Shown: one piece after another, positions 39,479 to 51,691 of the stretch
How positions within the stretch are numbered: the stretch's first letter is position 1
Layout of the letters: each line of letters starts with the position of its first letter
Origin: Actinomycetota bacterium
GTDB taxonomy: Bacteria > Actinomycetota > UBA4738 > HRBIN12
Reading direction: 5' to 3'
DNA length: 64,000 nucleotides
Assembly (NCBI GenBank): GCA_035697485.1
Contig: DASSCU010000063.1
Span: 124,001 to 188,000 of the forward strand
Made by a program: the position numbers and the translations under genes
The notes under the pieces: model-generated
What the model was told of the DNA's origin: nothing
The model's database searches: none
What the model saw: the letters and a program-made list of their open reading frames with translations, nothing else

Positions 39479-42478
39479 TCATGCGTCCTCTGAGCCCGGC
39501 CGGCTCGCCGGCTCGCTGCCCACAGGCTCGACCTCCCTCGGATCGATCGCAACCCCCACCACGTCGGTGTGGCTCCGCTCTTTCACACCCCCCTCGACGT
39601 CGATGCGCGGCACCACCCGATCGAGGAAGCCCGGCAGACGGAAGACGGACCCGCCGAAGAGCACGAGCATCGCGGGGGCCAGCAGCACGACCATCGTGCC
39701 CGCCAGCAGCACCGCGACCGCCAGGCCGACCCCGAACTGCTTCACGGTCGGGTCGCCGTTGATCACGAAGCTCGCGAAGACGCAGAACATGATCAGGGCC
39801 GCGGCCGAGATCACACGGCCGCTCGCCCCGAGCCCTGCCGGCACGGCCTCGCGGGGCGGCCTCCCGGCGGCGTGCTGCTGCTCGACGCGGCTCACGAAGA
39901 ACACCTCGTAGTCCATGGACAGGCCGAACAGCACCGCGAACATCATCAGTGGCACGTAGCTCGCGATCGGCACGGTGCCGCGAGGCACGTCGAGCCCGAT
40001 CAACGAGAGCCCCCATCCCCATTGGAAGACGGCCGTGAGCACACCGAGGGCCGCCGCCACCGACAGCAGGTTGGTGACCGAAGCCTGCAGCGGCACCGTC
40101 AACGAATGGAAGGCAACCGTGAGCAGCAGGAAGCTCAGCAGCACCACCGTGGCGATCACGAGCGGCAGCCGCTGACCGATCTTCGTGGCGAGGTCGACGT
40201 TCGACGCGGTCGACCCTCCGACGTTCGTCACCACCCCCTCGCCCTCCGTGGCGTCCGGCAGCACATCGATCCGCAGGGTGCCGACGAGGTCGGCGGTCGC
40301 CGGTGACGAGGGCGCGCGCTCCGGGATCGCGCTCACGATGACGGCGTCTCCCGCATCGTTGATCTGGGGCGGGAAGAGTCCGACGACCCCGTCGGTCGAG
40401 GTCAGCGCATCCTGCACCTGCACGACGCGGTGATCGGTGCCGCGATCGTCCCCTCCGGCCTTCGTGAGGATGTCGGTGAGCTCGTCCTGTAGGCGCAGGG
40501 CCCGCTGTTCCTGGGCGTTGGCCTCGTTGGCCTCGGACTGGAGCTCGTCGGCCTGCCGCTGGAGCGCCGCGCCCTCGCGCTGCAGTGCCGCCGCCTGGCG
40601 CTGGAGCTCGGCTCCTTGGACCTCGAGACCGGCGGCCCGCGACCGCAGCGCGTCGGCCTGTCGTTCGAGGGCCTCGCCCTCGGCTCGGAGCCGCTCCGCG
40701 TCCGCCAGCACGGCACGGCCCTGCTCGAGGAGCGGTTCCAGCCGGACGCGGGTGCGGGCCTCCTTGTCCTCGAGGCGCGCGAGGCGCCGACGTAGACGCT
40801 CGAGCTTGTCGGGGTCGGTCGTCTGCTCGATCAGGCGTTGCACGAGCCGCTCCCGGCCCAGGATGAAGGCGAGGTGGGCCGCGATCGGCCGCGCCCGCTG
40901 AGCGAGACGCTCGGCTCGGGCGCGCAACCGCGCCTCTTGCTGGAGGAGCCGGGCCCGCTGCAACTCGAGCTCGGCCCGCTGCCGCTCGAGCCGCGCCTGT
41001 CGGCGCTGCAGCGCGGCTCCCTTGCGTTCGAGTCGGGCCTGCTCCTCCTCGAGCTCGTCCTGCTGGGTCTCGAGCTCGGCCTGCTGCCGCTCGAGGCGCC
41101 GTTGTTCCTTCTCGAGCTCGGCTTGCAGCGAGATGGCTTCGTCGTACTTCCTCGTGTAGCCGACGCTCGGGTGGGCCGGAGGGTCGAGCCGCATCGCGAT
41201 GAGCAGGGGGCCGTTGTATCCGACGCCGAACCCGCGCGTGAGCAGGTCGTAGGCCTGGCGCTCGGTCGTGGACTTCGGCGACACGCCGATGTCCTCCTGC
41301 CCGAGCCGCAGGGAGAACAGGGGAACGATCAACGGCGTGAGGATCGCCGCGGCGAGCGCGATCGCGAGCCAGGGATGCCGGGCGACAGCGCCCGCCCACG
41401 CGTCCCAGCGCGTGTGACCCTCCGGGCGCTTCCTGAGCTGCAACAAGCGGGGCACCCGCACCCGGTTGATCCAGCCGCCCACCAGCGACAGGATCGCGGG
41501 CATCAGCGTGATCGAGGTGACGACCGCGCACAGGACGGCGATCGCCGACGCGAGGCCCAGCGTGCTCACGAGCGGGATGCCGGCGACTCCCAACGAGACG
41601 AGCGCGATCACGACGGTGCTGCCCGCGAAGACGATCGCGCTGCCCGACGACGAGACGGCGCGGGCGATCGACTCCCACATCTCGACGCCGGCGTCCAGCT
41701 GTTCCTTGTGCTTCGTGACGAGGAACAGCGCATAGTCGATGCCGACCCCGAGCCCGATCATGATCGCGAGCGTGGGCGCGACCGTCGGCACCGCGATCAG
41801 GTGTCCGAGCAGGCCGATCAGCGACGTGGCCACCGCGAGGCCGACCGCGGCGGTGAGGATCGGCAACCCCATCGCGACGAGGCTCCCGAACACGAGCGCC
41901 AGGATCACCATCGCCGAGAGGTTCCCGATACGCTCGCTGGTCGTGGTGTCGGGCTGGGACAGCTCGCTGCCGATCGGCCCGCCCACCGCGACCTGGATCC
42001 CGGCCTCGCGGGCAGGCTGCGTCGCGTCGAGCACCTTCTCGGCCAGATCGACGGTGATGAACCCGGAGTCGATGTCGAGCAGCACCGGCATGAACGCGAT
42101 CGTCCCATCGTCGCTCAGCAGGCCGGCCGTCCGCCCGTCCTTCGACAGCGGGTTCGTGACGCTGTGCACGTGCTCGGCACCCTTCATGCGCCGGTAGGTC
42201 GCGTCGACCGCATCCTTCGCCTTCCGCTCGGTCAGCCTCCCGTCGTCGGTGGTGAACACGAACGGACTCGTACCGTTCTGCTGTGGAGGGAACCGGTCGG
42301 CGAGCACGTCGAACGCCGCCTGGCTGTCGGTACCCGGCAGCGTGAGCTGGTTGTCGGTCTTCGCGCCGAGCATCCGGACGGCGCCGACGCTGGCGAGGAC
42401 GACGGCCACCCACACTGCGGCGACGACGAGACGATGACGGGCGCCGAACAGTCCGATGCGGTAGAGGAAACGGGCCAT
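39479..42478 (-). CDS. MmpL-type RND transporter with long coiled-coil arm
   Basis: A 999-residue inner-membrane exporter of the MMPL/RND group. Two helix bundles: about 180-360 with GIDYALFLVTKHKEQL, and about 760-950 with LSMDYEVFFVSRVEQQ, giving the paired Asp-Tyr residues expected of the proton relay. The first outer loop (about 40-175) is a normal porter domain. The second loop carries a region of about 220 residues (near 446-666) of heptad repeats rich in Gln, Glu, Arg and Leu, which would form a helical hairpin. Start ATG at 42478 is ten bases after TAGGGT. Substrate (lipid, siderophore or drug) is unknown. Confidence 0.88.
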   Translation of the reverse strand: MARFLYRIGLFGARHRLVVAAVWVAVVLASVGAVRMLGAKTDNQLTLPGTDSQAAFDVLADRFPPQQNGTSPFVFTTDDGRLTERKAKDAVDATYRRMKGAEHVHSVTNPLSKDGRTAGLLSDDGTIAFMPVLLDIDSGFITVDLAEKVLDATQPAREAGIQVAVGGPIGSELSQPDTTTSERIGNLSAMVILALVFGSLVAMGLPILTAAVGLAVATSLIGLLGHLIAVPTVAPTLAIMIGLGVGIDYALFLVTKHKEQLDAGVEMWESIARAVSSSGSAIVFAGSTVVIALVSLGVAGIPLVSTLGLASAIAVLCAVVTSITLMPAILSLVGGWINRVRVPRLLQLRKRPEGHTRWDAWAGAVARHPWLAIALAAAILTPLIVPLFSLRLGQEDIGVSPKSTTERQAYDLLTRGFGVGYNGPLLIAMRLDPPAHPSVGYTRKYDEAISLQAELEKEQRRLERQQAELETQQDELEEEQARLERKGAALQRRQARLERQRAELELQRARLLQQEARLRARAERLAQRARPIAAHLAFILGRERLVQRLIEQTTDPDKLERLRRRLARLEDKEARTRVRLEPLLEQGRAVLADAERLRAEGEALERQADALRSRAAGLEVQGAELQRQAAALQREGAALQRQADELQSEANEANAQEQRALRLQDELTDILTKAGGDDRGTDHRVVQVQDALTSTDGVVGLFPPQINDAGDAVIVSAIPERAPSSPATADLVGTLRIDVLPDATEGEGVVTNVGGSTASNVDLATKIGQRLPLVIATVVLLSFLLLTVAFHSLTVPLQASVTNLLSVAAALGVLTAVFQWGWGLSLIGLDVPRGTVPIASYVPLMMFAVLFGLSMDYEVFFVSRVEQQHAAGRPPREAVPAGLGASGRVISAAALIMFCVFASFVINGDPTVKQFGVGLAVAVLLAGTMVVLLAPAMLVLFGGSVFRLPGFLDRVVPRIDVEGGVKERSHTDVVGVAIDPREVEPVGSEPASRPGSEDA

Positions 42479-42540
42479 CTGGGCGCCCACCCTAGGGCGG
42501 GGGTTCTCGGGGGGTCAAACCCGAGCGCGGCCGGGGTCTT

Positions 42541-44098: not shown

Positions 44099-44130
44099 TC
44101 GGCTACCGGTTGCCCCTGTCTCGTCTCCCG

Positions 44131-44172
44131 CACGATACTGAGCCCACCCCCCACGATACTGAGCCCACCCCC
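44131..44172. repeat. Perfect tandem duplication of a 21-base promoter unit
   Basis: The unit CACGATACTGAGCCCACCCCC, 21 bases long, occurs twice without mismatch at 44131-44151 and 44152-44172. Each copy contains GATACT, a -10-like hexamer. The copies end immediately before the ribosome-binding sequence AGAGGAG (44173-44179) of the following gene cluster. Confidence 0.9.
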
Positions 44173-44203
44173 AGAGGAGCCGATCGATGAGCCACGTGCC
44201 GTT

Positions 44204-45436
44204 ATGCCCAGCGTCCGCCGCCAATCGCGGCTCATCGCTGCCGTGCGGTCAGAACGTCGAACGATCCGGCAGGGCATCGTGGCGCTCGTCCTCAGCACGG
44301 GCGCGGGTTTCGTCGCGGGCCTGATCCTCAGCCACATCACGGGAGCGCTGGAACGGTTCCCCGGGCTCCTGGTGTTGATACCGGCAGCCGTCGGGATGCG
44401 AGGGACGATCTTCGGGGCGCTCGAGGCCCGCCTGGGTACGAGCATCCACACTGGCCTCTTCCACGCCACGCTCCTTCGAGACGGCGTGCTCAGGGACAAC
44501 GTGACGGTGGCGATCGTCACGACGTTGACGTCGTCGCTCTGGCTCGCGATGCTCGCGAAGCTCACCTCCGAGCTGTTCGGCGAACCCTCGATCTCGCTGA
44601 TCCAGCTCGTCGTGATCTCCGTCGTCGGCGGCGCGCTCGGGTCGGTCGTGATCCTCGGGTTCACCGTCGGGCTCTCGGTGGTCTCGTTCCGGCGAGGCTG
44701 GGACCTCGACTCCGTCGGCACGCCGATGGTGACAGCGCTCGGCGATGCGGCCACCCTTCCGACGTTGTTCCTCGCCTCCTTGTTGGTCGAGAACGACCTC
44801 GTGACGGCGGCGGCTGCGGTCGCATGCATCGGCGCCGCGGCGTACAGCGTCGTTGCGGCCATGCGGAGCGACCGCCCCGCGGTGCGCCGCATCGTGCTTC
44901 AGATGACCGGGGTCATCGTGCTCACTCCGTTGCTGGATGTCGCCGCGGGTGGCCTGCTCGGGCGGTTCCAGTCTGAACTCGTCCGCAACGCGGGCATCCT
45001 CATCCTGATCCCTCCGTTCGTCTCACAGTCGGGTGCACTCGGAGGCATCCTCGCCTCCCGTCTCTCCTCGAAGATCCAGGTCGGCCTCGTGCGCCCGACC
45101 CCGTGGCCGGACCCCCTCGCCTGGGTGGATGCGGCGATCGTGTCCCTGCTCGCGCTCGTGACGTTCCTGGTCGTGGGATCGGGCGCGACGGCGCTGGCGG
45201 ATCTGACCACGCGCACGCATCCCGGAGCTTGGGAGATGATCGGCGGCACCCTCCTCGCCGGGCTCTCGCTGCTGCCCGTGTTGCTGGCGCTGTCGTACGG
45301 CGTCGCGGTGGCAACGGCGCGGCTCGGCCTCGACCCGGACGATCAGAGCGTGCCCGTGATCACCAGCTGCATGGACCTCACGGGTGTCGCCGCTCTGCTG
45401 GTGGTGATGTCGTTGCTCGGGGTCCTGCCTGGCTGA
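44204..45436 (+). CDS. SLC41/MgtE-like divalent cation transporter, first copy
   Basis: A 410-residue membrane protein built from two MgtE-type membrane domains in tandem, as in the SLC41 family, without the N-domain or CBS domains of bacterial MgtE. The two halves repeat the pore-type motif: GLLVLIPAAVGMRGTIFGALEARLGT near 55 and GILILIPPFVSQSGALGGILASRLSSK near 265. DPDDQSVPVITSCMDLTGVAAL closes the protein. Mg2+ is the likely ion. The only ATG with a good ribosome-binding site (44187) is out of frame with this reading frame; the start at 44204 has none. Its nearest relative is the next gene. Confidence 0.82.
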   Translation: MPSVRRQSRLIAAVRSERRTIRQGIVALVLSTGAGFVAGLILSHITGALERFPGLLVLIPAAVGMRGTIFGALEARLGTSIHTGLFHATLLRDGVLRDNVTVAIVTTLTSSLWLAMLAKLTSELFGEPSISLIQLVVISVVGGALGSVVILGFTVGLSVVSFRRGWDLDSVGTPMVTALGDAATLPTLFLASLLVENDLVTAAAAVACIGAAAYSVVAAMRSDRPAVRRIVLQMTGVIVLTPLLDVAAGGLLGRFQSELVRNAGILILIPPFVSQSGALGGILASRLSSKIQVGLVRPTPWPDPLAWVDAAIVSLLALVTFLVVGSGATALADLTTRTHPGAWEMIGGTLLAGLSLLPVLLALSYGVAVATARLGLDPDDQSVPVITSCMDLTGVAALLVVMSLLGVLPG

Positions 45437-45519
45437 GAGCTTGTTCGGCCCCGGACCTCGGGCGATACTTCGGCCGCCACCACCGGCCCGACGCCGACGG
45501 CGCCTCGAATCTCCTATCC

Positions 45520-46767
45520 ATGGCCACGTCCAGGAGCACCCGGTTGGTTCCCCGACGCGCTCGTCGTGTCTACGACACCTTGCGCGCCGAGCGGCGGACC
45601 CTGCAGCAGGGCGTGGCCGCCCTCGCGCTCAGCACGGCTGCCGGCTTCGTCGCGGGGCTGATCCTGGGGTCGATGGCTGGCACACTCGAGCTGCTCCCCG
45701 GATTGCTGGTGCTGATCCCTGCCTCGGTCGGCATGCGAGGCATGATCTTCGGAGCGATGGGTGCCCGGCTCGGAACCGGCATCGCCGCGGGCGTATTCGA
45801 GCCCACCCTCCGTCGCGGTGGCCTGCTCGCACACAACGTCGAGGTCGCGGTGGTCTCCGCAGTCCTGTCCTCTTTCTACCTCGCGGGCATGGCGAAGCTG
45901 GTGGCGTCGGCGTTCGGCGAGGACACCGTGTCGTTCTGGGATCTCGTCACGATCTCGGTGATCGGCGGAGTGCTCGCGTCGGCGGTGATCCTCGTGGTCA
46001 CCATCCGCCTCTCGATCCAGTCGTTCCGTCGAGGATGGGACCTCGATGCCGTGTCGACCCCCATGGTCACGGCGATCGGCGACATGATCACGCTGCCCGC
46101 GTTGTTCCTCGCGACGTTCATCGCGCGGAACCCTTCCCTGAATGCGGTCGCTGCGGCACTCTGCACGGCGGCGGCGGTCGGTGCCCTGGCCTGGGCCGTG
46201 GTGCGGAGCCCTCCCGTGGTGCAACGCACGCTGCTCGAGATGGCGGGTGTGAGCGCCCTCGCCCCGCTGCTCGACATCTTCGCCGGCGCCGTGCTCGAGG
46301 CACATCGCACGGAACTCGAAGCGATCCCGGGCATCCTCATCCTGATCCCGCCGTTCGTCTCCCAGGCCGGCGCCATCGGCGGCATCCTGTCGTCGCGCCT
46401 GTCCTCCAAGCTTCAGCTGGGCGTGATCACCCCCAGAGGGCGTCCCGAACGCCCCGCGCTCGTCGACGCAACGATCGTCATCGCGCTCGGACTCGTCGTC
46501 TTCACCGCGATCGGAGTGATCGCCGCCGTGCTCGCGTCGATCACCGGCGTCGCTCGGCCCCCGTCGGGGCTCATGGTTATCGGCACCGTGCTCGCGGGTC
46601 TGCTCGTGCTTCCGGTGACCCTGGTCGTGGGCTATTACGTCGCGGTGCTCACGACTCGATTCGGACTCGACCCAGACAACCACGGGGTGCCGACGATCAC
46701 CGCCACGCTCGACCTGACCGGGGTCGCCGCCGTGCTCTTCGTCATGTCAGTATTGGGGGTCACCTGA
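45520..46767 (+). CDS. SLC41/MgtE-like divalent cation transporter, second copy
   Basis: A 415-residue paralogue of the preceding protein, colinear along its length: GLLVLIPASVGMRGMIFGAMGARLGT in the first half, GILILIPPFVSQAGAIGGILSSRLSSK in the second, and DPDNHGVPTITATLDLTGVAAVLF at the end. About ten helices are expected. The two genes probably arose by duplication and may form a heteromeric or alternative pair. GATACT at 45464-45469 is a possible -10 of its own. Its stop overlaps the next start by one base (TGATG), coupling it to the PhoU-RCK_C gene. Confidence 0.85.
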   Translation: MATSRSTRLVPRRARRVYDTLRAERRTLQQGVAALALSTAAGFVAGLILGSMAGTLELLPGLLVLIPASVGMRGMIFGAMGARLGTGIAAGVFEPTLRRGGLLAHNVEVAVVSAVLSSFYLAGMAKLVASAFGEDTVSFWDLVTISVIGGVLASAVILVVTIRLSIQSFRRGWDLDAVSTPMVTAIGDMITLPALFLATFIARNPSLNAVAAALCTAAAVGALAWAVVRSPPVVQRTLLEMAGVSALAPLLDIFAGAVLEAHRTELEAIPGILILIPPFVSQAGAIGGILSSRLSSKLQLGVITPRGRPERPALVDATIVIALGLVVFTAIGVIAAVLASITGVARPPSGLMVIGTVLAGLLVLPVTLVVGYYVAVLTTRFGLDPDNHGVPTITATLDLTGVAAVLFVMSVLGVT

Positions 46768-47954
46768 TGAACGAACCGCGCAACGTCAAGGATCTGCTCG
46801 TCGAGCTCAAAGATGCCTCCGAGCTCATGGTCGACCTCGCGTACGCCGCGGTCTTCTTCAACGAGGACAAGCTCGCTCGCGAGGTCGCGCGCCTCGAGTC
46901 GCGGATGACCGACGACCTGCGCCGCCTCCGCACCACCGCCATGCTCGCCGCGCGTAGCCCCGAGGATGCCGAGGGCATGGCGGGGGTCCTGTGGATCGCC
47001 GACGCGATCGAGCAGGTGGGCGATGCCGCCTCCGACATCGCCAGGGTGGTCGCCGCCCGGCTCGGCATCCCCGACGCCCTCAAGCCCGACCTGCGCCACG
47101 CTGACGAGATGACCGCCCGCGTGAAGGTCCGTGAGCGCGGTGAGCTCGTGGGGCGGGACCTTCGCGAGCTCTCGCTGCCCACCGAGACCGGCATGTGGAT
47201 CGTGGCGATCCGATCCGGCCTGGACTGGCGCTTCGACCCTGGCCCCGACGACGTGATCGCCGACGGCGACGTGCTCGTGGTGCGCGGGCCCGACGAAGGC
47301 GTGAACGAGCTCCGCAAGCTCGCGGGCGCACCCCCGCTGCCGCTACCACCCGAAGGCGACGAACCCGCCCTGTCAGAACTCGATCGTGCTGTCGACATCC
47401 TCGTGGAGATGAAGGACCTGGCGGAGGCCGCGGTGGGCATGGCGTACTCGTCGCTACTGTTCAACAACCGATCGCTGGCCGCCGAGGTCGGCGCGCTCGA
47501 GGCTCGGAGCGATCAGCTCCGCGACGAACTGGAATCGTGGGTGCTGCGGGCCGCCCCCGAGGCACGCGATCCCGACGAGCTCCGCGGACTGATCCGGCTC
47601 GCCGGAGCGAGCGAGGCGATGTGCGACGCGGCACGCGACATGACCTGGTACGTGGAGCATGGAGAGGCGCTCCACCCCGTCGTGCAGATGGCGCTCGAGG
47701 AGACCGAGGAGACGAGCGCGGAGACGATCGTGCAGCCGGGCTCGCCGGCGGCGGGTCGCTCGTTGAAGGAGATGCGGCTCGAGACCGAGACCGGCATGTT
47801 CGTGCTGGCGGTGCAGCGAGGCGCCCGGTGGATCTACCGGCCGCGCCCCGGCTTCGTGGTCATGGAGGGTGACCGCCTGATCTCGGTCGGACCGGAGGAG
47901 GGCGAGGAGGAGCTCTGGGCCCTCACCGGCGCGCCGGTCGCAGCGGAAGGATGA
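46767..47954 (+). CDS. Internally duplicated PhoU-RCK_C regulatory protein
   Basis: A 395-residue cytosolic protein made of two repeats, each a PhoU-like helical bundle followed by a TrkA-C (RCK_C) domain. Repeat 1: helices about 5-105 with VDLAYAAVFFNEDKLAREV, then RGRDLRELSLPTETGMWIVAI-type RCK_C to about 200. Repeat 2: AVGMAYSSLLFNNRSLAAEV, then AAGRSLKEMRLETETGMFVLAV. RCK_C domains bind small ligands or ions and gate K+ or Mg2+ transport. The one-base overlap with the second transporter gene makes it a likely regulatory subunit of these transporters. The same domain mix next to MgtE-like genes is known in archaea. Confidence 0.85.
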   Translation: MNEPRNVKDLLVELKDASELMVDLAYAAVFFNEDKLAREVARLESRMTDDLRRLRTTAMLAARSPEDAEGMAGVLWIADAIEQVGDAASDIARVVAARLGIPDALKPDLRHADEMTARVKVRERGELVGRDLRELSLPTETGMWIVAIRSGLDWRFDPGPDDVIADGDVLVVRGPDEGVNELRKLAGAPPLPLPPEGDEPALSELDRAVDILVEMKDLAEAAVGMAYSSLLFNNRSLAAEVGALEARSDQLRDELESWVLRAAPEARDPDELRGLIRLAGASEAMCDAARDMTWYVEHGEALHPVVQMALEETEETSAETIVQPGSPAAGRSLKEMRLETETGMFVLAVQRGARWIYRPRPGFVVMEGDRLISVGPEEGEEELWALTGAPVAAEG

Positions 47955-48016
47955 TGCCGAGCGCAACACGCGACCGGCTCCTTGTACCGGCTCCCTCCCT
48001 GACCTAGCCTCGGCGC

Positions 48017-48568
48017 ATGGACGCCTACGTCTACCTCCACGTCGAGCCTGGGAGGATGAGCGACGTGCTCACGGGGCTCGCATCGAAGTCGCAGGTGCGC
48101 CGGGCGACCGCGGTGGTCGGCGCCTGGGACGTGCTGATGCACGCCGAGGGTGCCGATCTGGCGACGATCGCCACCCAGGTGCTCTCCGAGATCCACCACG
48201 TGCCGGGGGTGCTTCGCACCGTGACCGCACCCGTCGTCCCTCCCGATCGCATCGGCATCGCCGGATGGGGGGCGCCCAAGGCTCCCGCGATCATCGGCGA
48301 CGCCTGTTACGTGCACGTCAAGGCTGCGGCCGGCGCGGCCGCGGGCATCGCCGAACGCCTGGGCGACATGGGTGACGTTTCCGGTGTCGCCGTGCTCGGC
48401 GGCGAATACGACTTGATGGCCTGCGTCGCGCAGCCGTGGGAGGTCGCGAGCGGCGTGATCCTCGAGGAGATCCACGGCCTGCCGGGTGTGGTCTCGACCG
48501 ACACGCTCGTCTCGATCGTGTACGAGGAACCCGAGGAAGACCGCGACCAGTTCTCGTCGTGGACCTAG
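48017..48568 (+). CDS. Tandem Lrp/AsnC ligand-binding (RAM) domain protein without DNA-binding domain
   Basis: A 183-residue protein made of two Lrp/AsnC-type alpha/beta ligand-binding domains: MDAYVYLHVEPGRMSDVLTGL with GAWDVLMHAEG, and DACYVHVKAAAGAAAGIAERL with GGEYDLMACVA. No helix-turn-helix is present. Such stand-alone RAM proteins may bind amino acids or modulate other regulators. TAGCCT (48005-48010) is six bases before the ATG, so it is a separate leaderless gene even though it follows the transport cluster by 62 bases. Confidence 0.8.
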   Translation: MDAYVYLHVEPGRMSDVLTGLASKSQVRRATAVVGAWDVLMHAEGADLATIATQVLSEIHHVPGVLRTVTAPVVPPDRIGIAGWGAPKAPAIIGDACYVHVKAAAGAAAGIAERLGDMGDVSGVAVLGGEYDLMACVAQPWEVASGVILEEIHGLPGVVSTDTLVSIVYEEPEEDRDQFSSWT

Positions 48569-50716: not shown

Positions 50717-51691
50717 TCAGAGCCACCCGCGCTTCTTGAACACCACGTAGAGCCCGATCGCCGTGCCGACCATCATGCCGAGCGCCAGCGGATAGCCGAG
50801 CTGCCAGCGCAGCTCCGGCATGTCCCTGAAATTCATGCCGTAGATGCCGGCGATGAGGGTCGGCACGAGCACGATGGCCGCCCAGGCGCTGAGTTGCTTC
50901 ATCACCTCGTTCAGCCGGTTCGCGGCCTGAGCGACGCGAACCTCGAGCATCGAGGTCAGCAGGTCGCGCACGTTGTCCGCCAGCTCGGCGACTCGGATCA
51001 CATGGTCCATCACGTCGCGGAAGTAAGGCGACAGCGCCGGGGACGCGAACGCAGGCTCTTCCTGCAGGAGGTCGATGCCGTAGCGGAGTGGGGCGGCCGA
51101 GCGTCGAAGGAGGACGGTCGATCGCTTCAAGCGGAACAGACGCTCCTGCACATGCGATCCTCGCTCGGAGCTGTCGTCGCGCTCGAAGACCACGTCCTCG
51201 AGTTCGTCCGCCTCGTCCTCGAGACCCTCGACCACGGAGAGGTAGCCGTCGACGACCTCGTCGAGCAACACGTACAGGCCGAACCCAGCGCCGTGGAGGT
51301 CGGCATGACGCTCCCACCTCGTCTTGACGGCATCCAACGGGTAGAGCGGCGTCCATCGCACGGTCACGAGGAAATCGGCGCCGGCGATCGCGTGGATCTC
51401 GTGCTCGGTCGCGGTCACGGTGTCCCCGGCCATCGTGACCGGCCGCAGCACGACGAACGCGTAGCCCTCGAAGAGCTCGACCTTCGTCCGTTGGCGCCGG
51501 TGCTGAGCGTCCTCGAGGGTCACGGGGTGCAGGCCGAACGTGTGCTCGAGGTATGCGAGGTCGGCGGCGTCCGGATCGACGACATCGATCCACGCGAACC
51601 TGCCGGTCCCGCGGGTCCAGCCATCCGCTCGCTCGGGGTCGAGCGGCTCGCCGTTCGGTTGTCCCGCTCGATAGAGGCGGCCGGTGATCAT
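50717..51691 (-). CDS. corA: CorA-type magnesium/cobalt transporter
   Basis: A 324-residue membrane protein: a large cytosolic funnel domain and two C-terminal helices. The signature YGMNF (as IAGIYGMNFRDMPE) lies between the helices near residue 290, with the basic end VFKKRGWL. It forms a pentameric Mg2+ channel. TAGGCT (51699-51704) is seven bases before the ATG. With the SLC41-like pair 6 kb away the window holds two kinds of Mg2+ transporter. Confidence 0.93.
   Translation of the reverse strand: MITGRLYRAGQPNGEPLDPERADGWTRGTGRFAWIDVVDPDAADLAYLEHTFGLHPVTLEDAQHRRQRTKVELFEGYAFVVLRPVTMAGDTVTATEHEIHAIAGADFLVTVRWTPLYPLDAVKTRWERHADLHGAGFGLYVLLDEVVDGYLSVVEGLEDEADELEDVVFERDDSSERGSHVQERLFRLKRSTVLLRRSAAPLRYGIDLLQEEPAFASPALSPYFRDVMDHVIRVAELADNVRDLLTSMLEVRVAQAANRLNEVMKQLSAWAAIVLVPTLIAGIYGMNFRDMPELRWQLGYPLALGMMVGTAIGLYVVFKKRGWL

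Follow-up and report, generated by a model that had tools for sequence, protein, structure and literature searches.

A conserved pair of an SLC41-like transporter and a PhoU-RCK_C protein in Actinomycetota and Archaea, with an extra transporter at one bacterial locus

PH0236 of Pyrococcus horikoshii is a protein whose structure was reportedly solved in 2005, with no function given. Its PDB records (1vct, 2bkn, 2bko and 2bkp) state no function, and it consists of one PhoU-RCK_C repeat in a gene of its own, while the related Thermococci have two adjacent one-repeat genes. The actinobacterial protein analyzed here, REG, has the same repeat and fuses both. Other regulators with RCK_C domains, i.e., those of the KTN/RCK group (KtrA, TrkA, KhtT and the MthK ring), place this domain on a cation transporter, as is proposed here for REG, which nevertheless has no RCK_N Rossmann domain, contains PhoU bundles, and has a partner of the MgtE type rather than a K+ channel.

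This partner, T, also has close relatives among described systems. The Mg2+ channel MgtE of Thermus thermophilus (PDB 2yvx/2zy9 and 4u9l) has the fold of the membrane domain and the position of Asp432 in common with T, although each chain of T holds two membrane domains and lacks N and CBS domains, and the putative regulator is encoded by a separate gene and has an unrelated fold. SLC41A1-A3 and the archaeal double-MgtE proteins have two MgtE domains per chain and no CBS domain, like T (PMC9276622), whereas T is bacterial and is accompanied by REG. In a 2022 review, double MgtE motifs were confined to Archaea, choanoflagellates, and metazoa (PMC9276622), and elsewhere “some prokaryotic proteins” were allowed for (PMC13022745). 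Searches of the open-access literature found nothing relevant on the T-REG gene pair.

The window, i.e., the whole stretch of 64,000 nucleotides analyzed here, contains two such transporters, T1 and T2, together with REG (Table 1). Pfam finds two stretches of MgtE (PF01769) in both T1 (E 2.6e-23) and T2 (E 1.2e-26), which score 83.1 and 93.8 bits against a curated cut-off of 27.6, and detects N and CBS domains in neither, which corresponds to the architecture of SLC41 (two MgtE domains without CBS) and not to that of the classical MgtE (one membrane domain with N/CBS). In REG, the start of which overlaps the stop of T2 by one base (TGATG), TrkA_C (E 3.1e-28) and PhoU (E 1.3e-18) each occur twice, and Pfam gives no TrkA_N (RCK_N) match, which separates it from the KTN/RCK gating rings, just as its 43.6 bits against the phoU_full equivalog TIGR02135 (cut-off 130.25) leave it outside this equivalog. 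An earlier note on this DNA had read the locus as twin transporters with tandem MgtE domains but no N or CBS, a regulator with two PhoU-RCK_C repeats, and a RAM-domain protein 3' of it, and this description holds in all three parts, given that the last protein has two AsnC/Lrp ligand-binding (RAM-type) stretches, with no HTH or DNA-binding part found by Pfam. T and REG both belong to known families, and the domain pattern of the locus is not a product of chance, given that full-length REG is found in 89 of the 296 Actinomycetota genomes sampled. The RAM protein was rejected as a part of the module, as the comparison of neighborhoods found its gene beside REG only within the family of the window genome. 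Elsewhere in the window, the minus strand (39479-42490) encodes an MMPL/RND-like membrane protein split by a very long coiled-coil of repeated “LERQRAEL”-type heptads.

Table 1. Features of the transporter and regulator locus, in positions of the window.
Feature	Position	Strand	Details
T1 promoter-like sequence, TTGCCC-N18-GATACT	44110-44139	+	layout as TTGYCC-N17/18-ATACT before most family transporters
Perfect 21-bp tandem duplication, CACGATACTGAGCCCACCCCC x2	44131-44172	+	doubles the -10-like GATACT before T1
T1, extra SLC41-like transporter	44204-45436	+	410 aa, two MgtE domains; acid motifs D181 and D391 intact
T2 promoter-like sequence, TTGTTC-N17-GATACT	45441-45469	+	homologous to the HHH-T2 gap of the same-genus genome
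T2, ancestral SLC41-like transporter of the locus	45520-46767	+	415 aa, two MgtE domains; D188 and D398 equivalent to MgtE D432
REG gene, PhoU-TrkA_C-PhoU-TrkA_C	46767-47954	+	Pfam
REG repeat 1, PhoU + RCK_C	46767-47333	+	PH0236 relative
REG repeat 2, PhoU + RCK_C	47379-47954	+	domain search, tree, model
RAM protein, double AsnC/Lrp ligand-binding	48017-48568	+	neighbor outside the conserved core

Structural models lead to the same families. In the AlphaFold (AF2) model of T2 (pLDDT 90.8), one half matches the MgtE membrane domain 4u9l with a Foldseek probability of 1.00 and a TM of 0.71 for the MgtE chain, while the whole model retrieves MATE-type chains at the top with low TM, so that only the half-domain match to MgtE is meaningful. 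Similarly, a search of the PDB with full-length T sequences returned nothing useful, but a half-domain profile did align to MgtE. In this alignment, the MgtE pore Asp, numbered D432 here, falls on a position where every half has an Asp, those of T1 and T2 among them. The P(D/A)X4PX6D motif takes the form PDX4PX6D in half 2 and LDX4PX6D in half 1, and the PX6GN motif of half 1 is PX6GT/M in the window transporters and others of their type, and PX6GN in the other type.

The model of REG (pLDDT 87.5) has halves that match PH0236 over approximately 185-190 residues, i.e., one repeat, with a TM of 0.91-0.93 over the PDB chain, and the sequences match with an E of 7.1e-37, which makes REG a protein of the PH0236 type, with PhoU followed by TrkA_C in the PH0236 fold. 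The ExxxD pairs E19-D23, E245-D249, and E283-D287 are invariant in 49 sequences, and REG contains the E(D)XXXD motif named for the PhoU superfamily (PMC5686610).

Profile searches of 296 Actinomycetota genomes placed T and REG in an identical set of 89 and found neither in the other 207, and the two lists, compared by hand, coincide (Fisher p ~5e-78, uncorrected and with kinship ignored). T lies adjacent to REG in 84 of the 89 genomes; in three (G147, G286, and G305) they are on different contigs, and in two a contig end falls between them. Within each of six families (f10, f12, f14, f29, f44, and f47), T and REG are present or absent jointly, which points to several independent joint gains or losses. 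The loci were located with a query alignment that included a hand-written consensus row and a PH0236 row with invented first residues, used for this purpose only. In a set of 61 relatives, near and far, almost all REG-bearing genomes have one transporter, mostly directly upstream of REG, and two full transporters beside REG are found in the window genome only, considering both these relatives and the 296 Actinomycetota genomes. What the genomes conserve is REG with a single transporter, and T1 is a local extra. Given this, the conservation of the neighborhood expected in the earlier note divides: the trio is not conserved, since T1 is genome-specific and not sister to T2, and the RAM gene is family-specific, whereas the members of the T2-REG pair always occur together across the sampled actinobacteria. 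The presence of double-MgtE proteins in 30% of the sampled Actinomycetota contradicts their restriction in PMC9276622. Two degraded copies were also observed, a second T-REG pair in which both partners have decayed (G273:C11:45548-47979) and an additional REG copy interrupted by a stop (G163:C97:7744-8940).

The pair is not confined to bacteria. In a survey of 148 genomes of the phylum around Methanohalophilus, which was complemented with named archaeal loci, REG was found in 128 genomes (in one of them, G337, as a weak single match only) and transporter halves in 125, all of which have REG; two genomes, G405 and G449, have a clear REG without T, so that T is present in 125 of 127 REG-bearing genomes. 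Almost all of these genomes contain REG repeats and MgtE halves in exactly two copies each, and this 2:2 number is kept in actinobacteria, methanogens, and Thermococci despite different gene fusions and splits. Both T and REG are fused in the actinobacteria, the Methanosarcinales and Methanocellales combine two one-domain transporter genes with a fused REG, and the Thermococci have a fused T with two one-repeat REG genes, as well as, in two of the eight genomes searched in this group, a second transporter elsewhere. In the trees, repeats 1 and 2 of REG separate into two groups that each span archaea and bacteria, with the Thermococcal second repeats attached basally, and the first transporter halves behave in the same way, as do the second halves with weaker support, which indicates that the doubling is ancient and that the halves are not interchangeable copies. 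The bacterial T-REG pair represents an ancient unit of two proteins that archaea also have, and the module of transporter and regulator with twofold domain numbers, shared with archaea, that the earlier note had proposed is found in this form.

The additional transporter of the window has a different history. T1 and T2 are approximately 55% identical, and T2 is sister to the sole transporter of a same-genus genome (support 100/100), while T1 forms a long branch inside the larger group of T2; the origin of T1 as a recent tandem copy of T2 was rejected, as was a T1+T2 clade (AU p 5.3e-6). The sequence preceding T2 corresponds to the gap that lies before the only transporter of the sister genome, but the DNA before T1 does not, which places the entry of T1 between the upstream gene and the ancestral promoter-like sequence of T2. 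Exchanges of the transporter beside a stable regulator are seen elsewhere. For example, in two genomes of one genus (G015 and G011) REG is 97% identical and T only 43%, with DNA identity rising from ~55% to 96% at the start of REG, and two other pairs give 90% for REG and 52% for T (G026/G024), and 88% and 52% (G019/G020). The two transporter types, which differ in their pore-side residues (GMRGT/FVSQAG vs. GMRGN/FLEDT), take each other's place next to the same REG. In-place swaps of T beside a nearly unchanged REG in same-order genomes were noted at the loci L003 vs. L006, L040 vs. L052, and L045 vs. L047. T1 would be a same-family transporter, with a promoter-like sequence of its own, that was gained upstream of T2 in the window lineage; it may share REG, or it may be an intermediate of the exchange seen in other genomes, in which case the T1-T2 pair may represent a transporter exchange caught half-way.

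The conserved TTGYCC-N17/18-ATACT layout before these transporters was recognized by comparing loci and not by a strict sigma-70 scan, which returned no promoter, the T1 promoter-like sequence falling below its cut-off. The duplicated 21-bp unit has no copies in the genome besides the two before T1, and its first base, 44131, is where the region delimited in the earlier note begins. An upstream ATG/GTG lies ~11-20 bases before the annotated start of T1 (44187-44204) and at the corresponding site before T in L032-L048 and L052, i.e., in most transporters of the family, T2 excepted, in a constant non-T frame with a conserved ...CCGTTATGG (M-x-x-P-L-W), which is possibly a leader peptide or a coupled start. 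A riboswitch search near the genes gave only a sub-threshold ZMP/ZTP match within the RAM gene (E 0.42), taken as chance.

Given the fixed domain numbers and the shared distribution, it is rather likely that REG is a pseudo-dimeric cytosolic regulator which gates a pseudo-dimeric SLC41-like transporter of divalent cations; from such patterns we infer the binding of REG to T, the gating, the cargo, the direction of transport, and the ligand. The two MgtE domains fused in the T2 chain would form the pore that the classical MgtE forms as a homodimer, and the two PhoU-RCK_C repeats fused in the soluble REG would form the matching cytosolic pseudo-dimer, docked on the cytoplasmic face of T, where a ligand would open or close the transporter. 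The PhoU-RCK_C repeats would in this way stand in for the N/CBS domains of the classical MgtE, whose job they probably do. Against this reading, no fused T-REG protein was seen, and half 1 of the window transporters is without the N of PX6GN. The likeliest signal would be a divalent metal bound at the conserved E/DxxxD sites of the PhoU bundles, a small ligand bound at the RCK_C pair, or both, and the likeliest cargo would be Mg2+ or a related divalent cation, Mg2+ being favored because T retains the pore Asp of MgtE and because CorA is encoded directly upstream of T-REG, on the same strand, in the Rubrobacteraceae (L148, L155, L162, and L166). T need not be the Mg2+ importer, given that the window genome also has CorA (50717-51691, minus strand) and a CBS-MgtE. 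The latter, on another contig (L061, C33), is a single-domain MgtE of 325 aa with CBS but without an N domain.

These same genes bear on the direction of transport. A secondary exchanger that carries Mg2+ out of the cell, the activity reported for SLC41A1, in place of a channel-like importer, is a tentative alternative of some weight, in which REG would turn export on at high Mg2+: the double-domain, CBS-free architecture is that of SLC41 (PMC9276622), CorA and CBS-MgtE are already present in the genome, and the CorA of the Rubrobacteraceae would pair import with export, although direction is not readable from sequence and the exchange by SLC41A1 is disputed (PMC9276622). That T and REG form one pathway for another cargo, such as a different divalent metal, is suggested by the interchange of two pore-side signatures beside one REG, yet this is unlikely in view of the pore Asp conserved in each half and the neighboring CorA. 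A defined complex of T1, T2, and REG, with twin transporters matching the two repeats, would agree with three consecutive genes on one strand and with motifs intact in both transporters; it is improbable, however, as relatives carry one transporter per REG, one T with one REG already satisfies the twofold numbers, and T1 is preceded by a promoter-like sequence of its own and does not branch as the sister of T2.

The names of the PhoU and RCK_C domains come from phosphate and K+ systems. These names, and the labeling of PH0236 in the PDB as potassium-channel related, would agree with REG as a regulator of K+ or phosphate that merely neighbors T, but the co-occurrence of both in two domains of life, even in genomes where they are unlinked, makes this very unlikely. 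The RCK_C domains of REG align with those of KtrC, CpaA, KhtT, and BusR, several of which bind c-di-AMP (PMC8517857), so that the pair could be a c-di-AMP receptor gating T, as in KtrA, CpaA, KhtT, and BusR. This reading is extremely doubtful, as 40 of the 89 REG genomes are without the diadenylate cyclase PF02457, which REG carriers have less often than other genomes; in the window lineage c-di-AMP is a very unlikely signal because neither the window genome nor any sampled REG carrier of its family has the cyclase, and the same applies to the sampled carriers of f4 and f5. Across the sample as a whole, PF02457 is present in 218 of the 296 Actinomycetota genomes and missing from whole related families (G000-G014, G019, G021, G024, G027, G042, and G056).

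The preferred reading remains the gating of T by REG. Its most complete form, which is advanced tentatively, is a two-protein cation system in which PhoU-RCK_C gates SLC41 in trans at a fixed 2:2 in the Methanohalophilus phylum, the Thermococci, and the Actinomycetota, with a constant regulator, a repeatedly swapped transporter, and both the old and the new transporter in the window genome. A partner that acts in trans, whose fold is known and which accompanies the transporter in more than 200 genomes of two domains of life, would offer a direct and testable answer to how MgtE/SLC41 proteins that have no N/CBS domains, a class which includes the human SLC41 proteins, are regulated. The double-MgtE transporters are thereby extended widely into bacteria, where their exchange under a constant regulator provides a natural experiment.
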